Under the pieces are notes generated by a model. It was not told where the DNA came from. It saw nothing but the letters and a program-made list of their open reading frames with translations, and did no database searches. A program made the position numbers and the translations under genes. This document shows, one piece after another, positions 31,736-60,137 of a DNA stretch of 64,000 bases. The stretch spans positions 124,001 to 188,000 of the forward strand of contig CALJPQ010000003.1 of NCBI GenBank assembly GCA_937980645.1, read 5' to 3'. Each line of letters opens with the position of its first letter. Position 1 is the stretch's first letter. The DNA comes from an uncultured Saprospiraceae bacterium. Lineage in GTDB: Bacteria > Bacteroidota > Bacteroidia > Chitinophagales > Saprospiraceae.

Positions 31736-33187
31736 TTATAGTCCGTATTTGTCTATCAGGTAAATGAGTGCTGCCATGCTGGCCGCTCCGAGCTGCAGTT
31801 CGCGCGGGTGTACGGCCTCAAACACGTCGGCTGCCGTGTGGTGAAAATCGAAATAGCGCTGCGAGTCGGGTCGGAGGCCAGCTAGAAGGCCTTTTTGTCC
31901 GCGCAAAGGGCTGATGTCGGCCCCAGAGCCGCCGCGCCACAGCATGAGGCCGAAGGGGCGCAAGACTTCTTCAAACTGCGACACCTGGTCGAAGTAGTAA
32001 TCAATCATTTCCGGGTCGGCGTCGAAGCTGAAGCCACGCGGTGTAAAGCCACCAGCGTCACTTTCTAAGGCAAATAGGTGTATTTCTTCCTTCTCCTCGG
32101 CAGCGGCGGCATAGGTCAGACCTCCGCGCAGGCCGTTTTCTTCGTTCATGAACAGCACACAGCGCAGCGTGTGGCGCGGGCGATAACCCAATTTGCGCAG
32201 CAGGTAGAGCACTTCCATGCTTTGCACACAGCCGGCGCCATCGTCATGGGCACCTTGGCCTACATCCCAGCTGTCTAAGTGGCCGCCGACGAGGAGGACT
32301 TTGTCGGGCATCAGAGAGCCGCGAATCTCGCCGATGACGTTGTACGACAGCACGTCGGGCAGCGTGCGGCAATTCAATGTCATGGACACGCGCACGTTCT
32401 TCTCTTCGCGAAGCAATGCACTGAGGCGTTCAGCAGCGTTGGTGCTGATAGCGGCTGCCGGAATGAGCGCATAGGCAGAGTCGTAACGCAGTGTACCTGT
32501 GTGCGGATAGTCGTCGAGCGCCAGGCCCATCGAACGCACCAGCACAGCTACTGCACCATACTTGGCTGCACGCGACGGGCCAGATACGCGCTGGTCCACG
32601 GCGCCGCCATAGGCCTCGAAGGTGTTGATGTGCCGGCATTCCATCGGGCGGTTGTAAAACACAATTTTACCCGTAACGCCCTGCCTGCCCAGCGAGTCTA
32701 AGGCTTCCCAGCTGCATATCTCGACCACTTCGCCGACAACTGCTTTGCCGCCTGTGCCAACAGAACCACCCAGCGCCAGCGCGGGCAGGCGCATGGCTTT
32801 ACGCTTAGGCGTACCTGTTACTTCTACCACTTCGGGTGCGCCGCGTTCCCAGCGCGGAACCATCACCGGCTGCAACCAGACGCTGTCCAAGCCGCAGGTG
32901 TCGAGCACGGCCTTCGCCCAGCGCACAGCTTTCTCCGCTCCCGCACTGCCGCTTAGCCGGTGGCCGGCGCCGTAGCACAGGTCGCGCAGCCAGGGGTGTG
33001 ATTGCCCATCGGACAGTGAGCGGTCAAAAATCTTTCGGATAAAGGCTTTATCCGCCGCCCAAGGGTCTTTCTGGGCCAGTAGCTCAGCGGGGAGTGTAAG
33101 GCTTACAATAAGGAAGCCAATCCAGAAACGCCAGATGCCTTTCGCGCGCAGCAAACTGGCGAGGTAACTCGTTGTTTTGTTTTTCAT
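31736..33187 (-). CDS. Exported M28 family metallopeptidase (carboxypeptidase Q/PGCP-like)
   Basis: 483 residues with an N-terminal signal (hydrophobic stretch 18-38, ending LLAQ). A PA domain insert (about 120-250) splits the peptidase, as in plasma glutamate carboxypeptidases. The zinc ligands are in order: GGHLDSWDVGQGAHDDGAG (His and bridging Asp), MNEENGLRGG (catalytic Glu and ligand Glu), LESDAGGF (Asp) and FDFHHTAAD (His). It is expected to remove N-terminal or C-terminal residues from peptides in the periplasm or outside. Convergent with the permease gene, 35 nt apart, with no clear terminator between them. Confidence 0.88.
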   Translation of the reverse strand: MKNKTTSYLASLLRAKGIWRFWIGFLIVSLTLPAELLAQKDPWAADKAFIRKIFDRSLSDGQSHPWLRDLCYGAGHRLSGSAGAEKAVRWAKAVLDTCGLDSVWLQPVMVPRWERGAPEVVEVTGTPKRKAMRLPALALGGSVGTGGKAVVGEVVEICSWEALDSLGRQGVTGKIVFYNRPMECRHINTFEAYGGAVDQRVSGPSRAAKYGAVAVLVRSMGLALDDYPHTGTLRYDSAYALIPAAAISTNAAERLSALLREEKNVRVSMTLNCRTLPDVLSYNVIGEIRGSLMPDKVLLVGGHLDSWDVGQGAHDDGAGCVQSMEVLYLLRKLGYRPRHTLRCVLFMNEENGLRGGLTYAAAAEEKEEIHLFALESDAGGFTPRGFSFDADPEMIDYYFDQVSQFEEVLRPFGLMLWRGGSGADISPLRGQKGLLAGLRPDSQRYFDFHHTAADVFEAVHPRELQLGAASMAALIYLIDKYGL

Positions 33188-33345: not shown

Positions 33346-33377
33346 TTGTTTGAATTACACAAAGCCCTTTACCTTTG
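33346..33377 (+). promoter_or_regulatory. Promoter of a candidate small RNA
   Basis: TTG (33346-33348; also TTTG at 33349-33352) precedes TACCTTTG (33370-33377) by 17-21 nt, a full match to the Bacteroidota promoter. The nearest downstream coding start is almost 300 nt away and beyond a terminator. Confidence 0.55.
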
Positions 33378-33381
33378 TAGC

Positions 33382-33473
33382 GCAAAAACAGGGCGAAAGT
33401 ACAAAGAGCAATAATTTGGTTTTATTTGGTTAGGGCTGAGGTAGTGCTGTGGTGGCGCTACCTCATTTTTTTT
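33382..33473 (+). ncRNA. Candidate small RNA of about 90 nt (or terminated leader)
   Basis: This is the stretch between the predicted start of transcription after TACCTTTG and the end of a strong terminator. It contains no ATG, so a leader peptide is unlikely. The 5' part is A-rich and unstructured (CAAAAACAGGGCGAAAG), followed by a U/G-rich TTTGGTTTTATTTGG stretch and the terminator stem. I cannot match it to a known RNA family by eye. It could instead be an attenuated 5' leader of the M14 peptidase gene at 33673. Confidence 0.4.
33437..33473 (+). terminator. Intrinsic terminator ending the candidate small RNA
   Basis: TGAGGTAGTGC pairs with GCGCTACCTCA (one T-G wobble) around a 7-nt loop, followed by eight Ts (33466-33473). 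Confidence 0.8.
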
Positions 33474-33672: not shown

Positions 33673-36267
33673 ATGCACTTGATATCAACCCTGTGTTGTA
33701 CGGCTGTATGGCTTTTCGGAACCATTTTTTACCCAGTAGCGATGGCTCAAAAGCCCTCCCTGGATTACTACTTGCCTGCAGCATCCTACGACCCTGCGGT
33801 GCCCAAGCCCGCCGACGTGTTGGGCTACGAAGTAGGCGAGTGGCACGTTTCGCCCGACCAGCTGGTTACCTACATGCGCGAGTTGGCCCGCACCAGCCAG
33901 AGAGTAGTGCTGCGCGAGTACGGACGCACACACGAGCGGCGGCCCTTGGTTTACCTGACCATCACCTCGCCGGAAAACCACCGGCAGTTAGACGACCTGC
34001 GGCAACGGCGGCGCTTGTTAGCCGATCCCGCCCGTAGCAGTGGATTAGACCCCGCGGCCCTGCCCGCCGTGGTGATGATGGGCTATTCCATCCACGGCAA
34101 CGAAGCCAGCGGAAGCAACGCCGCCCTGTTGGTGGCCTACTATCTGGCCGCAGCGCAATCACAGGAGGTCGAGCAACTGTTGCAAAATACCGTCGTTCTC
34201 CTTGACCCGTGCTTCAATCCCGACGGTCTGCAGCGCTTCTCCACATGGGTCAACAGCCGGCGCAGCCAGACGCTGATGCCCGACCCGGCCCATGAGGAGT
34301 TTCACGAACCCTGGCCCGGAGGACGCACCAACCACTACTGGTTCGACCTCAACCGCGACTGGTTAGTCATGCAGCAACCCGAGTCCGCCGGGCGCGTGGA
34401 ACTCTTTCAGGACTGGCTGCCCAATGTGCTGACCGACCACCATGAAATGGGCACTAATACGACCTTTTTCTTCCAACCCGGCGTGCCTTCGCGCGTGCAC
34501 CCGCTCACGCCGGCCCTCAACCAGCGGCTGACGGCCCGCATCGGCGAGTATCACGCTCGCGCTCTGAGCGAAAAAAAGGTGCTGTTCTACTCTGAGGAGA
34601 ACTACGACGACTTTTACTACGGCAAAGGCTCCACATACCCTGACATCAACGGCAGCATCGGCATCCTATTTGAGCAAGCCAGCAGCCGTGGCAGCGCGCA
34701 GGAGAGCAACTACGGTTTGCTGACTTTTCCCTACACCATTCGCAACCAGGTAATTACGTCGCTCTCTACGCTGCGTGCTGTCGGCGATATGCGCGCAGAT
34801 TTGAACAAATACCTGCGCGATTTTTACGCGGAGGCGCTCAACGAGGCACGTGCGGATAAGATAAAGGGCTACGTTTTCAGCGACCCAGGTGGCACCAACT
34901 CTCGGCCCGTACGCGAATTTATCCGCTTATTGTTGCGCCATCGCATCCGCGTGCATCCTGTATTGGGAGCTGTGGAAGAAAAAGATGTGGAAATGTCTGC
35001 TGGCCAGACCTGGGTGGTGCCCACCGACCAGCCGCAGTATCGCCTCATTCAGGCCATTTTCGAGCACCGGACGACCTTTCAGGACAGCATTTTCTACGAC
35101 ATTTCTGCCTGGACGCTGCCCGATGCTTTTGGCCTGAACTGGTCGTCTCTGCAATCGAGCGCCCTGTTGCTGACGCGACTGGGCCCACCTTTGGAACGCG
35201 AGCCGCAGTGGCCTGCGCTGTCGGTTCCGGAGGTCTCGCCCGACGTGTACGCTTATGCCGTGGGCGCCGAGGGCTATGACGTGCCGCGCTTGCTGGCGGG
35301 CCTGCACCGGGCGGGCATCCGCGTAATGGTAGCCCAGCGCCCGTTTGAGGCGGAAGGACGGGCTTTCCGCGAAGGAGCGTTGCTCATTCCACTTGACCGG
35401 CAGCCCATGAATGCCGAAGCGATACGCCAGCGCATCCTGCAGAGCGGTGCAGAAGACATTCAAGTGTTTGCTTTACGTAATGGTTTGACGCCTAAAGGCC
35501 CGGACCTCGGTAGCAGCCATTTTGCCGTCCTCCGCCCGCCTAAAATAGTGCTGGTAACGGGCCGCGACGCCGGCACAGCGGAAGTGGGCGAAATCTGGCA
35601 CCTGCTCGATGTGCGTTGCGGCATGCCACCGTTATTGGTGGATGCCGAGCGCTTCAACAACCTCGACCTGACAAAATACAATACCCTTGTGCTGGCTGGC
35701 GGAAATTTCAGCCGCCTGTCGGCCGACAAAGTGAAGCAATTCGTCTCGGGTGGCGGCACGCTCATTGTGCAGGGTACAGCCGTGCGCTGGGCCAAAAATG
35801 CCGGCCTTGTTTCCTGGGATTTGCGCCCTGTGCCCCGCGTAGAGGAGAACACGCGGCGGCCGTACGCCAGCATGGAGGAAGATGCGCGGGCTTTGAGCCT
35901 CCCGGGGGCTATCCTGCGGGCAGAATTGGACCTGACGCATCCGCTGGCCTATGGCTATCGGCGGGTGGCCATATCTCTATTTGTTACGGGCGATGTGTTT
36001 GTGCAGCCGCCAGCAAATGCTTATTCCACTCCGGCAATTTATAGGGCTCAGCCCCTGATAGCCGGGTACTTACATCGGCAGCATCATGCCTTAGTTTCCG
36101 GAGCTGCGGCCATGGTGGTGCAGTCTTCCGGTAGTGGGCGTATCATCGGGTTTTGTGCCAACCCTGCTTTCCGTGGTTTCTGGTACGGTACCGACCGGCT
36201 GTTGGCGAATGCGGTGTTTCTGGGCAGCATCATCCGCACCAGCAGTCGCTCCAGCGGTGAGGATTAG
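33673..36267 (+). CDS. Exported M14 zinc carboxypeptidase with C-terminal GATase1-like domain
   Basis: 864 residues. Signal peptide MHLISTLCCTAVWLFGTIFYPVAMAQ. The peptidase domain (about 55-400) has the M14 zinc motif GYSIHGNEASGS (His, Glu), DPCFNPDG, FDLNRDW (substrate Arg), DHHEMGTNTTFFF (third His) and a candidate catalytic Glu in GILFEQASS. A long C-terminal half (about 490-860) contains a flavodoxin/GATase1-like fold (LDVRCGMPPLLVDAE, KYNTLVLAGGNFSRLSADKVKQFVSGGGTLIV), as in a subset of Bacteroidota M14 peptidases. It probably degrades exogenous peptides or cell-wall peptides. There is no sorting domain. It converges on the next gene with only 6 nt between stops. Confidence 0.88.
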   Translation: MHLISTLCCTAVWLFGTIFYPVAMAQKPSLDYYLPAASYDPAVPKPADVLGYEVGEWHVSPDQLVTYMRELARTSQRVVLREYGRTHERRPLVYLTITSPENHRQLDDLRQRRRLLADPARSSGLDPAALPAVVMMGYSIHGNEASGSNAALLVAYYLAAAQSQEVEQLLQNTVVLLDPCFNPDGLQRFSTWVNSRRSQTLMPDPAHEEFHEPWPGGRTNHYWFDLNRDWLVMQQPESAGRVELFQDWLPNVLTDHHEMGTNTTFFFQPGVPSRVHPLTPALNQRLTARIGEYHARALSEKKVLFYSEENYDDFYYGKGSTYPDINGSIGILFEQASSRGSAQESNYGLLTFPYTIRNQVITSLSTLRAVGDMRADLNKYLRDFYAEALNEARADKIKGYVFSDPGGTNSRPVREFIRLLLRHRIRVHPVLGAVEEKDVEMSAGQTWVVPTDQPQYRLIQAIFEHRTTFQDSIFYDISAWTLPDAFGLNWSSLQSSALLLTRLGPPLEREPQWPALSVPEVSPDVYAYAVGAEGYDVPRLLAGLHRAGIRVMVAQRPFEAEGRAFREGALLIPLDRQPMNAEAIRQRILQSGAEDIQVFALRNGLTPKGPDLGSSHFAVLRPPKIVLVTGRDAGTAEVGEIWHLLDVRCGMPPLLVDAERFNNLDLTKYNTLVLAGGNFSRLSADKVKQFVSGGGTLIVQGTAVRWAKNAGLVSWDLRPVPRVEENTRRPYASMEEDARALSLPGAILRAELDLTHPLAYGYRRVAISLFVTGDVFVQPPANAYSTPAIYRAQPLIAGYLHRQHHALVSGAAAMVVQSSGSGRIIGFCANPAFRGFWYGTDRLLANAVFLGSIIRTSSRSSGED

Positions 36268-56532: not shown

Positions 56533-56684
56533 CCTCAAACCTGGCTGCCCTGCAAGAAGGCGGCACGCGCGAAGGCATCCTGTCCTGCATTTGGCCAGGT
56601 TTTCTTAATGAAAAATTGACAAACCTGGCAAATGCGCCGCCAGGCACTTGTCTATCTTCGCCCATTACCTCACCGATTACACAC

Positions 56685-57032
56685 GTGTTCTCAACCCGAT
56701 TTACGGAAAAGTACTCTCCTCTTTTGCTTCTGCTGGCCCTGCTGGCAGGCGCTTCTATGGCATTAGCGCAGAACAGCCACCCCAAAGACAAGCCCGGCGC
56801 CGCTGACCACCCTATGTTCAACCGAATGAACAACTTTTACATCTACGACTACTCGAACAATTACGATGCCTTTGAATTCTTCCTACCCGACGGCAAGCGC
56901 CAGCGCGTAGAAGGAAAGCGCGTGAGAGTTTACTATATGCACGGTTTTGGCTGCGAAGTGTCTGTTGCCGACAACCGCAAGGAAAGCGGTCGCGCACAGA
57001 ACCGGCGCGTCGAGGTGGTGAAATTGCGCTAA
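56685..57032 (+). CDS. OmpA-family remnant with large internal deletion
   Basis: 115 residues from a GTG at 56685, which gives a signal peptide (FSTRFTEKYSPLLLLLALLAGASMALAQ). Residues about 30-85 (HPMFNRMNNFYIYDYS..., LPDGKRQRVEGKRVRVYY) match the N-terminal region of Bacteroidota OmpA-family lipoprotein-like proteins. The chain then jumps at VYYM|HGFG to the extreme C-terminus of an OmpA peptidoglycan-binding domain (VADNRKESGRAQNRRVEVVKL). The normal protein would have over 200 residues between these parts, including the TD-x-x-G-x-x-x-x-N-x-x-L-S-x-x-R motif, which is absent. The frame is intact across the junction. I judge it an in-frame deletion product, probably non-functional; I kept it as CDS because it remains translatable. 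Confidence 0.6.
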   Translation: MFSTRFTEKYSPLLLLLALLAGASMALAQNSHPKDKPGAADHPMFNRMNNFYIYDYSNNYDAFEFFLPDGKRQRVEGKRVRVYYMHGFGCEVSVADNRKESGRAQNRRVEVVKLR

Positions 57033-57094: not shown

Positions 57095-57127
57095 TTGCTT
57101 CATTGCAGGGAAGAAGCGTTACCTTTG
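57095..57127 (+). promoter_or_regulatory. Promoter of carB leader
   Basis: TTG (57095-57097), 22 nt, TACCTTTG (57120-57127) followed by CGCTCC. The predicted start of transcription lies at about 57131-57133, a few bases before the leader ATG at 57137. Confidence 0.55.
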
Positions 57128-57136
57128 CGCTCCGAA

Positions 57137-57217
57137 ATGTATCGGAGAAGAGAAACACCTTTTGTTTTATCGGATAAACCGGAAGCGGCCTGCTGCGCTG
57201 CTTCCGGTTTTTTTTAA
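57137..57217 (+). CDS. Putative 26-aa leader peptide of carB
   Basis: ATG at 57137, TAA ending at 57217, reading MYRRRETPFVLSDKPEA... to the C-terminus ASGFF. It starts about 5 nt after the predicted transcription start and reads through the U-rich stretch CCTTTTGTTTTAT and the whole terminator stem, stopping within the T-run, 10 nt before the carB GTG. It is in a different frame from carB. It has the layout of the pyrBI leader peptide of enteric bacteria; its translation is inferred, not shown. Confidence 0.45.
   Translation: MYRRRETPFVLSDKPEAACCAASGFF
57176..57215 (+). terminator. Intrinsic terminator inside the carB leader (putative attenuator)
   Basis: AAACCGGAAGC (57176-57186) pairs perfectly with GCTTCCGGTTT (57200-57210), an 11-bp stem with a 13-nt loop. 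It is followed directly by Ts to 57215. A smaller hairpin CTCCGA-AATGTA-TCGGAG precedes it at 57130-57147. The whole lies between the promoter and the carB start codon. Confidence 0.85.
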
Positions 57218-57227
57218 AGCACCTGCT

Positions 57228-60137
57228 GTGAGAGACCCATCCATCCAGACCGTTTTGATTATTGGCTCGGGGCCGATCATCATTGGCCAGGCGTGTGAAT
57301 TTGATTACTCCGGCTCCCAGGCCAGCCGTTCGCTGCGCGAGGAGGGCATCCGGGTAGCCCTCATCAATTCCAACCCGGCCACCATCATGACCGACCCGGT
57401 AACTGCGGACTACATCTACCTGCGCCCGCTGACGCCGGAAAGCATCGAGCGGATCCTGCAAGAGCATCAGGAGAACCCCGCGCTACCGCCTATAGATGCC
57501 GTGCTGCCCACCATGGGTGGCCAGACGGCGCTCAACTTGGCTATCGAGTGCGAAAAGCTAGGCCTATGGGAACAATATGGTGTGCGCATGATTGGCGTGG
57601 ACACACGCGCTATTGAGACTACCGAAAACCGCGAGGAATTCAAGCGTTTCGTCGTCGGGCTGGGCCTGTCGGTAGCGCCCTCGTACATCGCCAACTCGTT
57701 TCTGGAAGGCAAGGAGGCGGCGCAAAAAATTGGCTTTCCACTCGTTATCCGGCCTTCCTACACGCTGGGCGGCACAGGCGGCGGCTTCGTCATGCGCGAG
57801 GAGGATTTCGACGAAGCCCTCAAGCGCGGCCTGAATGCCTCGCCCACGCACGAGGTGCTGGTGGAAAAGGCCGTCCTGGGCTGGAAGGAATACGAATTGG
57901 AACTCCTGCGCGACCGCAACGACAACGTCGTCATCATTTGCACGGTCGAAAACCTCGACCCCATGGGCGTACACACGGGCGATAGCATCACCATCGCGCC
58001 TGCCATGACACTAAGCGACACGTGCTTTCAGGAAATGCGCGACCAGGCACTGCGCATTATGCGCGGGCTGGGCAACTTCGCCGGTGGCTGCAATGTGCAA
58101 TTCGCCCAAAACCCGGAAACAGAGGAACTCATTGCCGTCGAGGTGAACCCCCGCGTGTCGCGCTCGTCGGCCTTGGCCAGCAAAGCTACCGGTTACCCCA
58201 TCGCTAAAATCGCAGCCAAACTGGCTATCGGCTACACGCTGGACGAACTGGCCAACCAGATAACTAAAACCACCTCAGCCCTCTTCGAGCCAGTACAGGA
58301 CTACGTCATCGTCAAGATGCCGCGCTGGAACTTTGAGAAATTCCCTGGCGCCGATGTGCGGCTGGGCCTGCAAATGAAATCGGTAGGTGAAGTGATGGCC
58401 ATCGGGCGCAGTTTCACCGAAGCCCTCCAGAAGGCCTGCCAGAGCCAGGAAAACAACCGCAACGGCCTGGGCGCCGACATGAAAGAATGGCTCAAGACCG
58501 ACGATATCCTGGAGCGCTTGGAAAAGGCCTCCGACGACCGCATCTACCGAGTCAAAGACGCCCTGCGGCTGGGCATCCCGTCGCGCACGGTGCAAAAACT
58601 GACCGGTATTGACCCATGGTTCATCCAGGAAATCAAGAAACTGGTCAAAATGGAAGAGCAGCTGCAGCGCTACAATGTGCCCGAAGATATTCCAGATAAT
58701 GTCTTCTTGGAGTTGAAGAAAAACGGCTACTCCGACGCACAAATCGCCTGGCTGTTGCGTGTGGATGAAAAATCCGTAACGCGCGAGCGCAAACGGCGCG
58801 GCATACGGCGCGTGTATAAAATGGTGGATACCTGCTCAGCGGAATTTGAGTCGAAGACCAACTACTTCTATTCCACCTTTGAGAGCGGCATAGCGCAATT
58901 GCCTTCACCTGCTGAAGGGGAGGTAAAGGGCGAAGCGTCGGCGCCTATTTTTCAGCCTAAAAATGAGAGCATAGTCCAACACGATCGCAAGAAGATCGTA
59001 GTGCTTGGCTCTGGCCCTAACCGCATTGGCCAGGGTATCGAGTTCGACTACTGCTGCGTGCATGGTGTGCTGGCCGCCAAAGAGCTGGGCTACGAGACCA
59101 TCATGGTCAACTGTAACCCGGAGACGGTGAGCACCGACTTCGATGTGGCCGACAAGCTCTATTTTGAGCCGGTGTACTGGGAGCATCTGGAAGAAATCCT
59201 CGAGCACGAGCGCCCCGATGGCGTCATCGTACAGCTGGGCGGCCAGACGGCCCTCAAACTCGCCGAAGACTTGTACAAAAACGGCTGGAACATTGTTGGT
59301 ACCTCGTTTCCAGACATGGACATTGCCGAAGACCGCGGTCGCTTCAGCGACCTGCTCAAAGCACTCGATATTCCCTATCCGAAATACGGCGCTGCGCGTG
59401 ACGTGGACGAAGCACTCGACATTGCCCGGCGCCTGCCGTACCCGCTACTGGTGCGTCCCAGCTACGTACTGGGCGGCCAGCGCATGAAGATTGTCATCAA
59501 CGACCACGAACTGGAACGCCAGGTGCTGAGCATCTTCAAGCACATGCCTGACAACCGCGTGCTCATTGACCAGTTCCTCGAACGCGCTAAAGAGGCCGAA
59601 ATAGACGCCATCTTCGACGGTGACGAACTGCACGTCATGGGCATCATGGAACACATCGAACCGGCGGGAATCCACTCGGGCGACTCCTCAGCCGTATTGC
59701 CATATTACTCACTTGGCCCTATCGTCATTGAGCGCATGATCGAGTACGCTGAAAAAATCGCCCGCGCCTTGCGCATCAGGGGCCTCATCAACATTCAGTA
59801 CGCCATCAAAGACGACCAGGTCTATGTCATCGAGGCCAACCCGCGTGCCTCGCGTACGACGCCCTTCATCGCCAAAGCCTATAATATCCCGTACCTGAAT
59901 ATCGCCACTAAGGTGATGCTGGGCACGCACAAGCTGCGCGACTTCCACTTAGAACAGCAACTGGAGGGTTACGCCATCAAAATACCAGTCTTCTCGTTCG
60001 AGAAATTCCCGGGGGTGGACAAACGCCTGGGCCCCGAGATGAAGAGCACCGGCGAGGCCATTTATTTCATCCGTGACCTCAAAGACCCGTATTTCCGCGA
60101 ACTGGAGCGCAACCGCAGTATGTACCTCTACAGCTAA
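57228..60137 (+). CDS. carB: Carbamoyl-phosphate synthase large subunit, lacking the MGS-like allosteric domain
   Basis: 969 residues from a GTG at 57228. The upstream frame is open but the family begins close to VLIIGSGPIIIGQACEFDYSG. Makes carbamoyl phosphate for pyrimidine and arginine synthesis, with ammonia from the CarA subunit, which is not in the window. First ATP-grasp half about 1-390, oligomerisation region, second half from about 590 (VVLGSGPNRIGQGIEFDYCC). The protein ends at about the position where the E. coli enzyme (1073 residues) starts its C-terminal allosteric domain: FEKFPGVDKRLGPEMKSTGEAI then a short tail to MYLYS. Loss of that domain is usual in Bacteroidota. An extra linker of about 25 residues (LPSPAEGEVKGEASAP region) lies between the halves. 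Confidence 0.95.
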   Translation: MRDPSIQTVLIIGSGPIIIGQACEFDYSGSQASRSLREEGIRVALINSNPATIMTDPVTADYIYLRPLTPESIERILQEHQENPALPPIDAVLPTMGGQTALNLAIECEKLGLWEQYGVRMIGVDTRAIETTENREEFKRFVVGLGLSVAPSYIANSFLEGKEAAQKIGFPLVIRPSYTLGGTGGGFVMREEDFDEALKRGLNASPTHEVLVEKAVLGWKEYELELLRDRNDNVVIICTVENLDPMGVHTGDSITIAPAMTLSDTCFQEMRDQALRIMRGLGNFAGGCNVQFAQNPETEELIAVEVNPRVSRSSALASKATGYPIAKIAAKLAIGYTLDELANQITKTTSALFEPVQDYVIVKMPRWNFEKFPGADVRLGLQMKSVGEVMAIGRSFTEALQKACQSQENNRNGLGADMKEWLKTDDILERLEKASDDRIYRVKDALRLGIPSRTVQKLTGIDPWFIQEIKKLVKMEEQLQRYNVPEDIPDNVFLELKKNGYSDAQIAWLLRVDEKSVTRERKRRGIRRVYKMVDTCSAEFESKTNYFYSTFESGIAQLPSPAEGEVKGEASAPIFQPKNESIVQHDRKKIVVLGSGPNRIGQGIEFDYCCVHGVLAAKELGYETIMVNCNPETVSTDFDVADKLYFEPVYWEHLEEILEHERPDGVIVQLGGQTALKLAEDLYKNGWNIVGTSFPDMDIAEDRGRFSDLLKALDIPYPKYGAARDVDEALDIARRLPYPLLVRPSYVLGGQRMKIVINDHELERQVLSIFKHMPDNRVLIDQFLERAKEAEIDAIFDGDELHVMGIMEHIEPAGIHSGDSSAVLPYYSLGPIVIERMIEYAEKIARALRIRGLINIQYAIKDDQVYVIEANPRASRTTPFIAKAYNIPYLNIATKVMLGTHKLRDFHLEQQLEGYAIKIPVFSFEKFPGVDKRLGPEMKSTGEAIYFIRDLKDPYFRELERNRSMYLYS

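Follow-up and report, generated by a model that had tools for sequence, protein, structure and literature searches.

The window analysed here, a 64,000-nucleotide (nt) stretch from the genome of an uncultured Saprospiraceae bacterium (G000:C3:124001-188000, in a genome of 40 contigs), carries on its forward strand carB, the large-subunit gene of carbamoyl-phosphate synthase (57228 to 60137, 969 amino acids (aa), GTG start), which is recognized by the NCBIfam models NF003671 and TIGR01369 and by the Pfam families CPSase_L_D1, D2 and D3. Between the end of a co-directional open reading frame (ORF) at 57032 and the carB start codon lies a leader on the same strand, in which a −7 promoter box, TACCTTTG (57120 to 57127), is followed by a 26-codon ORF (57137 to 57217, product MYRRRETPFVLSDKPEAACCAASGFF, stop codon at 57215 to 57217) that begins close to the predicted 5′ end of the transcript and spans an intrinsic terminator (57176 to 57215). 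The arms of the terminator stem, 57176 to 57189 and 57197 to 57210, form 14 pairs including one G-U, with 11 consecutive Watson–Crick pairs at the base and a 7-nt loop, and the stem runs into eight T residues (57208 to 57215). Only 10 nt separate the stop of the leader ORF, and 12 nt the T-run, from the carB GTG. Judged from its sequence and its relatives this is a real attenuator-like leader, resembling in anatomy that of the enterobacterial pyrBI operon, and we consider this description very likely to be correct. A sequence-only reading of the same DNA had already proposed a pyrBI-type attenuator at this place, and the positions it gave for an upstream TTG, the box, the 26-codon ORF, a U-rich stretch (CCTTTTGTTTTAT, 57158 to 57170), the 11-bp stem with its T-run and the 10-nt gap were all confirmed in the sequence.

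The box fits the TAnnTTTG consensus and is kept across the leaders of the genus, whereas the TTG at 57095 to 57097, separated from the box by 22 nt and taken in the sequence-only reading for a −33 element, is a weak candidate because the Flavobacterium johnsoniae promoters described in PMC6847099 have no evident −33 motif. In the mapped Flavobacterium promoters of two studies the box spans −12 to −5 (PMC9723704, PMC6847099), which puts the predicted transcription start at 57132 and the AUG of the leader ORF 5 nt from the 5′ end. Such a position is unusual, since short 5′ untranslated regions (UTRs) are rare in the species with published figures: leaderless mRNAs make up 5.5% in F. psychrophilum (PMC9723704), 5′ UTRs of less than 10 nt about 3.7% in B. 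thetaiotaomicron (PMC7366714) and 5′ UTRs of 10 nt or less 13% in F. johnsoniae (PMC6847099). In the window the AUG is further predicted to lie in the loop of a small hairpin, CUCCGA/UCGGAG (57130 to 57147), the first two bases of which precede the predicted start.

The comparison set for the genus consists of 36 carB upstream regions, from 35 genomes (that of the window and 34 of 36 relatives) and from the named record M3007, which has the same leader as G030; together they represent 33 distinct leaders. No carB start was obtained for the relatives G015, where it lies off the contig, and G036. Box, 5′-proximal AUG and terminator are kept at all 36 loci. Positions T1, A2, C4, T5, T6 and G8 of the box are invariant in the 33 distinct leaders, and from the start of the box to the end of the T-run there are 87–99 nt in 32 of them and 112 nt in G014. 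When the terminator stem was aligned (A1) and compared with 500 shuffles, 10 of the 14 pairs showed compensatory changes on both sides and 97.0% of the cells were paired, values reached by none of the shuffles. Within 8 kb the carB terminator, with 14 pairs against 7 in the next best, stands out among 23 terminator-like sites, where shuffled sequence yields a mean of 9.3. A scan of the 300 nt before the gene start for a box followed by a terminator recovers the unit at 30 of the 36 loci; four of the six that it misses have the leader more than 300 nt away, and the other two are copies of the imperfect G030 stem.

With a covariance model of the leader, 38 of the 41 genomes of the genus each gave one strong match (57–97 bits), which fell at carB in every case in which the locus was compared. 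Only weak matches were obtained in G036 and G063, and the next match in rank (39.6 bits, G061:C587) is a carB leader cut by the contig end. The idea that the leader also precedes other genes was rejected: model R1 matched at carB only, and the lower matches that were read sit behind other genes, those of G000:C19, G036:C177 and G060:C375 being, by eye, stems just behind the end of an ORF (for G002:C87 only the ORFs were listed). Among 198 genomes across the order, a search with stricter filters produced a match with E <1e-5 in the window's own genome only, and the 19 carB loci compared in other genera of the family all lack a terminator behind the box; the unit thus appears to be a novelty of this genus. 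No Rfam family was recovered with the leader: up to E = 5 the search returned nothing but an unrelated microRNA model.

An AUG occurs 9–16 nt after the box in all 33 leaders and has been retained despite changed surroundings in G014, in G030 and in the window clade, composed of G000, G019, G002 and G011. In 32 of the 33 leaders the ORF starting there is open to the base of the stem, where shuffles predict 24.0, and in 30 it stays open for the first 12 nt of the stem (22.0 predicted); in no leader does the first stop come earlier than 3 nt before the stem, so that ORF and terminator always overlap or abut. At 10 of the 36 loci the ORF stops between 14 nt before and 8 nt after the carB start. 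The aligned sequences establish, at their own level, a conserved leader terminator with an ORF open across it, and we infer that this ORF is translated. How strongly a nearby stop codon can matter is illustrated by E. coli, where moving it to 5 bp before a terminator lowered termination efficiency from about 90% to less than 10% (PMC4824070).

Could the terminator merely end the upstream gene, with carB starting downstream of it? The co-directional ORF ending at 57032 is in favour of this view, which the sequence-only reading had itself named as the outcome that would overturn its proposal. The comparison contradicts it. The nearest long upstream ORF (>200 aa) varies among relatives and lies on the opposite strand in 10 genomes (G034, G014, G033, G025, G030, G006, G005, G008, G004 and G017), the spacing between box and terminator is nearly constant, and no −7 box intervenes between terminator and carB at 35 of the 36 loci, the exception being G031 with 1350 nt and an extra ORF in between. 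The terminator therefore belongs to the carB transcript, and an upstream-gene terminator is hardly credible. Position between the carB promoter and the carB start, with no other promoter between them, is also what characterizes the pyrBI terminator, as far as sequence can tell. Improbable, too, is a separate small RNA gene ending at this terminator, beyond which carB would be reached by constitutive partial read-through. A 5′ hairpin followed by a terminator is indeed the usual layout of small RNAs, and the window contains another conserved promoter-terminator unit at 33370 to 33473; however, the leader diverges in everything except box, AUG, pairing and T-run, is present once per genome, at carB, and contains the only promoter box available to carB at the 35 loci mentioned. 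It is conceivable that the terminated leader RNA has a role of its own.

Arginine might be sensed in the manner of the trp and his attenuators, by ribosomes stalling at early Arg codons when the amino acid is short. In 29 of the 33 leaders at least one of codons 3–5 encodes Arg, with early motifs such as MYRRR and MKKR, and a tandem AGA-AGA stands early in the leader ORFs of G019, G002, G011 and the window, where codons 3–5 are CGG-AGA-AGA (57143 to 57151), although AGA is the rarest Arg codon of the window (17 of 18,907 codons). On the other hand, G031, G026, G008/G024 and G004 have no early Arg codon, and CGA/UCG pairs in the 5′ hairpin account for some of the Arg codons in other leaders. 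In amino acid attenuators more than 20 bp lie between stop codon and terminator (PMC4824070), a distance not seen in the carB leaders. Nor was an antiterminator found: pairing of the leader with the 5′ arm of the stem is no better than in shuffles (mean z −0.41, 6 of 33 below −1), and exclusive pairing 1:2, 2:3 and 3:4 according to the trp logic, good in single leaders, failed over the whole set. Argininosuccinate synthase was not found in G000, G019, G002 and G011, each with a single carbamoyltransferase gene, nor in G022, and the match in G007 is below the family cut-off, yet the early Arg codons are kept in these genomes. The window clade, whose genomes are small (3.4–3.9 Mb), is likely to consist of arginine auxotrophs, unlike G005, G012, G035 and G021; carbamoyl phosphate would then have no arginine outlet, so that arginine control would have little purpose there while a pyrimidine signal fits. 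We consider arginine attenuation quite unlikely. There is somewhat more to be said for an RNA switch in which a protein or ligand binds the 5′ hairpin, CCGAA(A)UGAAA...UUUCA(C)UUCGG, and gates the AUG and thereby termination, with PyrR as the obvious candidate, but this too seems improbable. Most of the genus has the CCGAA...UUCGG pairing around the AUG in place of the window form, the hairpin z is below −1 in 23 of the 33 leaders, and an alignment (A2) has the outer four pairs intact in all 25 distinct rows, 7 of the 33 leaders (window clade, G014, G030, G033), with the hairpin missing or altered by eye, being left aside. Compensated variants exist (CCGAC/GUCGG in G012 and G003, CCAAAAUGA/UCAUUUUGG in G005), and pyrR is found directly upstream of pyrB in all 10 genus genomes examined (L168-L177), where it has no leader terminator. 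Formal covariation in A2 is nevertheless not above that of shuffles, and the window clade, with z above −0.6 in all four leaders and below −1 in none, has by this comparison lost the hairpin of the genus. PyrR itself is encoded by the window genome (NF003549, 172.6 bits against a cut-off of 138) and by 29 of 30 genomes searched; it was rejected as a co-occurring partner, being present both with and without the leader, and in the rest of the family 19 of 20 genomes have it, yet none of the 19 carB loci there has the leader. Rfam, which presumably holds a PyrR element, gave no match, and a PyrR-binding element with an antiterminator was not found.

In the explanation that we prefer, 57120 to 57215 (96 bp) would act in cis as a transcription attenuator of carB. 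RNA polymerase is predicted to start around 57132 and to stop by default around 57213, and carB would be reached by read-through only. The most likely device is a ribosome that loads at the AUG next to the 5′ end, enters the 5′ arm of the stem and thereby blocks the terminator. Slow loading, which the hairpin at the AUG may bring about in most of the genus, or slow codons such as the CGG-AGA-AGA of the window would keep termination the default state, and a slower polymerase would favour read-through. With no antiterminator, no RNA parts of a PyrR system and an ORF spanning the terminator, it is the pyrBI geometry that remains. The signal would most likely be pyrimidine supply, because carbamoyl phosphate in the window clade appears to have no arginine outlet. 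The leader could also supply feedback that CarB itself may lack, as the sequence-only reading had supposed: the C-terminal domain is missing, with profile matches ending at 923 of 1058 and 931 of 1052, and no MGS domain was found among 10 Pfam families searched. We lean towards ribosome passage as the antiterminating event, put forward UTP (uridine triphosphate) or general pyrimidine supply as the signal only tentatively, and see the complete explanation, a 96-bp cis-acting attenuator with antitermination by ribosomes and a pyrimidine signal, as evenly poised between right and wrong. A more elaborate form of it, which we think rather unlikely, is a 5′-terminal timer: the ribosome would have to load at the extreme 5′ AUG before the hairpin closes, scarce pyrimidine nucleotides would slow the polymerase so that the ribosome wins and passes the nested terminator, and in several lineages, where the ORF ends at the carB start, antitermination would be coupled to carB translation. 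If true, coupling would be achieved in this order of Bacteroidota without a Shine–Dalgarno sequence, a regulator protein or an antiterminator.

A number of observations weigh against the attenuator as we have described it. An AUG inside a hairpin, as in most of the genus, should hinder initiation, and a terminator that lies no more than 100 bp into a reading frame usually escapes the ribosomes (PMC4824070). The leader ORF may stop as early as 3 nt ahead of the stem or as late as beyond the carB start, and frame +2 is likewise open to the stem in 26 of the 33 leaders; as the leaders are moreover related, the signal from ORF openness is modest. Peptide and frame are unconserved after about codon 5, and 1-nt length differences between G007/G022 and G034/G023 shift the frame. 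This is expected if only the passage of the ribosome matters, and equally if the ORF is irrelevant. The U-rich tract is missing in the sister genomes G002 and G011, where U makes up 0.15 and 0.30 of the last 20 nt before the terminator (0.35 in G019 and 0.50 in the window; mean 0.365, range 0.15–0.55 across the 33 leaders), and in relatives it is partly the 3′ strand of the 5′ hairpin, so that a role for UTP is at best faintly suggested, by analogy. The G030 stem is imperfect and falls under the scan threshold, and in G007, G009, G021 and G031 the leader lies 600–1350 nt from carB with extra ORFs or repeats in between, though its promoter box has remained beside it. Applied to other pyrimidine genes, the 300-nt scan for box and terminator was positive at 0 of 10 carA, 0 of 10 pyrR and 0 of 9 pyrD loci (at a tenth pyrD locus, L227, the motif did not locate the start), and no pyrimidine regulon is evident. 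What stands of the pyrBI-type attenuator of the sequence-only reading is therefore the leader terminator with its compensatory changes, the AUG with an open ORF over or abutting the stem and the absence of an antiterminator; the U-rich tract, uneven across the genus, is a less certain part of it, as is the proposed response to UTP.

Outside the genus, 79 carB loci were surveyed for similar upstream open reading frames (uORFs), L019 and L062 having been left out beforehand (match not at the CarB start). A box was present at 65 loci and an AUG within 16 nt of it at 14, although in L135, L212 and L213 this AUG lies just before carB and L133 is a duplicate of L253. In a second family of the order, 10 of the 12 genomes in which the carB start is present have an AUG 7 or 9 nt downstream of a box. 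These uORFs of 21 to 80 codons are open to within 11 nt of carB in 10 of 10 cases (3.24 of 10 from shuffles), frames 1 and 2 being open in 5 and 2, and their stops fall between 11 nt before and 19 nt after the carB start. Six of the ten genomes represent one genus, whose leaders have no terminator; in G058, G076 and G154 the uORF crosses a stem and T-run, which in G154 is detected at a lower threshold only and is joined by a second, weaker stem seen by eye. From this survey the near-leaderless carB uORF seems to be wider in distribution than the terminator.

Some features of the surroundings deserve mention. The ORF upstream of the leader in the window (56616 to 57032, forward strand) has 138 aa with weak OmpA-like C-terminal matches; the ORFs at the matching place in G019 and G011 have 278 and 277 aa, and that of the window may be a shortened or broken remnant. 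In L009 of G021 (94 to 1500) the leader ORF reads on across the terminator, in the same frame, into an inserted gene, which we take to be LamG-like, to give 460 codons ending 4 nt before carB. The insert of G031 looks similar but is not fused to the leader ORF. In L006 and L007 (G007 and G009) arrays of AATCGAATC-type repeats are found between terminator and carB together with a small ORF, presumably four-helix-bundle-like. When the entire window was searched on both strands for a TAnnTTTG box with a strong stem and T-run at 70–110 nt, two units were obtained, the carB leader and that at 33370 to 33473 on the forward strand, in which TACCTTTG is followed by the stem TGAGGTAG...CTACCTCA and eight T residues. 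This second unit is flanked by a minus-strand ORF, whose 5′ side ends at 33187, and by one on the plus strand at 33673. Its DNA has matches in 10 of 10 genomes of the genus; a 63–70 nt core is 97–100% identical in G002, G011, G007 and G005, and other matches reach 79–86% over longer stretches. It had no relevant Rfam match and is perhaps a new small RNA.

Our literature searches, aimed at pyrimidine control and at this kind of attenuator, brought up none for carB in Bacteroidota. The principle is already known; new are the host group, the near-leaderless start and the nested arrangement. Since the phylum initiates translation without Shine–Dalgarno pairing (PMC6847099), a terminator nested in a near-leaderless uORF would lend itself to testing how closely its ribosomes trail RNA polymerase. 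Ribosomes reading this tiny ORF probably decide on carB expression.

The PyrR-controlled pyr attenuators of Bacillus provide one comparison: PyrR is present here too, and a pyrimidine gene has a leader terminator, but the carB leader has no conserved antiterminator and no Rfam match, and PyrR does not co-occur with it. With the trp and his attenuators, exemplified in Bacteroidota by the Bacteroid-trp motif (RF01692, PMC2864571) and perhaps by the leader-peptide clues reported for F. psychrophilum (PMC9723704), it shares a leader ORF with early Arg codons and a terminator before a biosynthetic gene; it differs in having no antiterminator, in an ORF that overlaps the terminator and, in the window clade, in a carbamoyl phosphate pool from which no arginine would be made. 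Carbamoyl-phosphate synthase is also controlled from the 5′ region by reiterative transcription at E. coli carAB P1, where the start run is GUUU (PMC6245113) as against the predicted CCGAAAUG here, and by the Polynucleobacter carA RNA motif, which, unlike the carB leader, is a single extended hairpin adjoining the ribosome binding site (PMC8632094). The closest relation in design is enterobacterial pyrBI, with a promoter, a short ORF overlapping an intrinsic terminator, no antiterminator found and an early pyrimidine gene downstream. The carB leader departs from it in its near-leaderless AUG, placed within a hairpin in most species, in its unconserved U tract and in its length of about 80 nt, the pyrBI leader gene measuring 135 bp (PMC4824070). 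Whereas pyrBI is known to be UTP-sensitive and translation-coupled, the likeness that we draw for the carB leader is one of anatomy.

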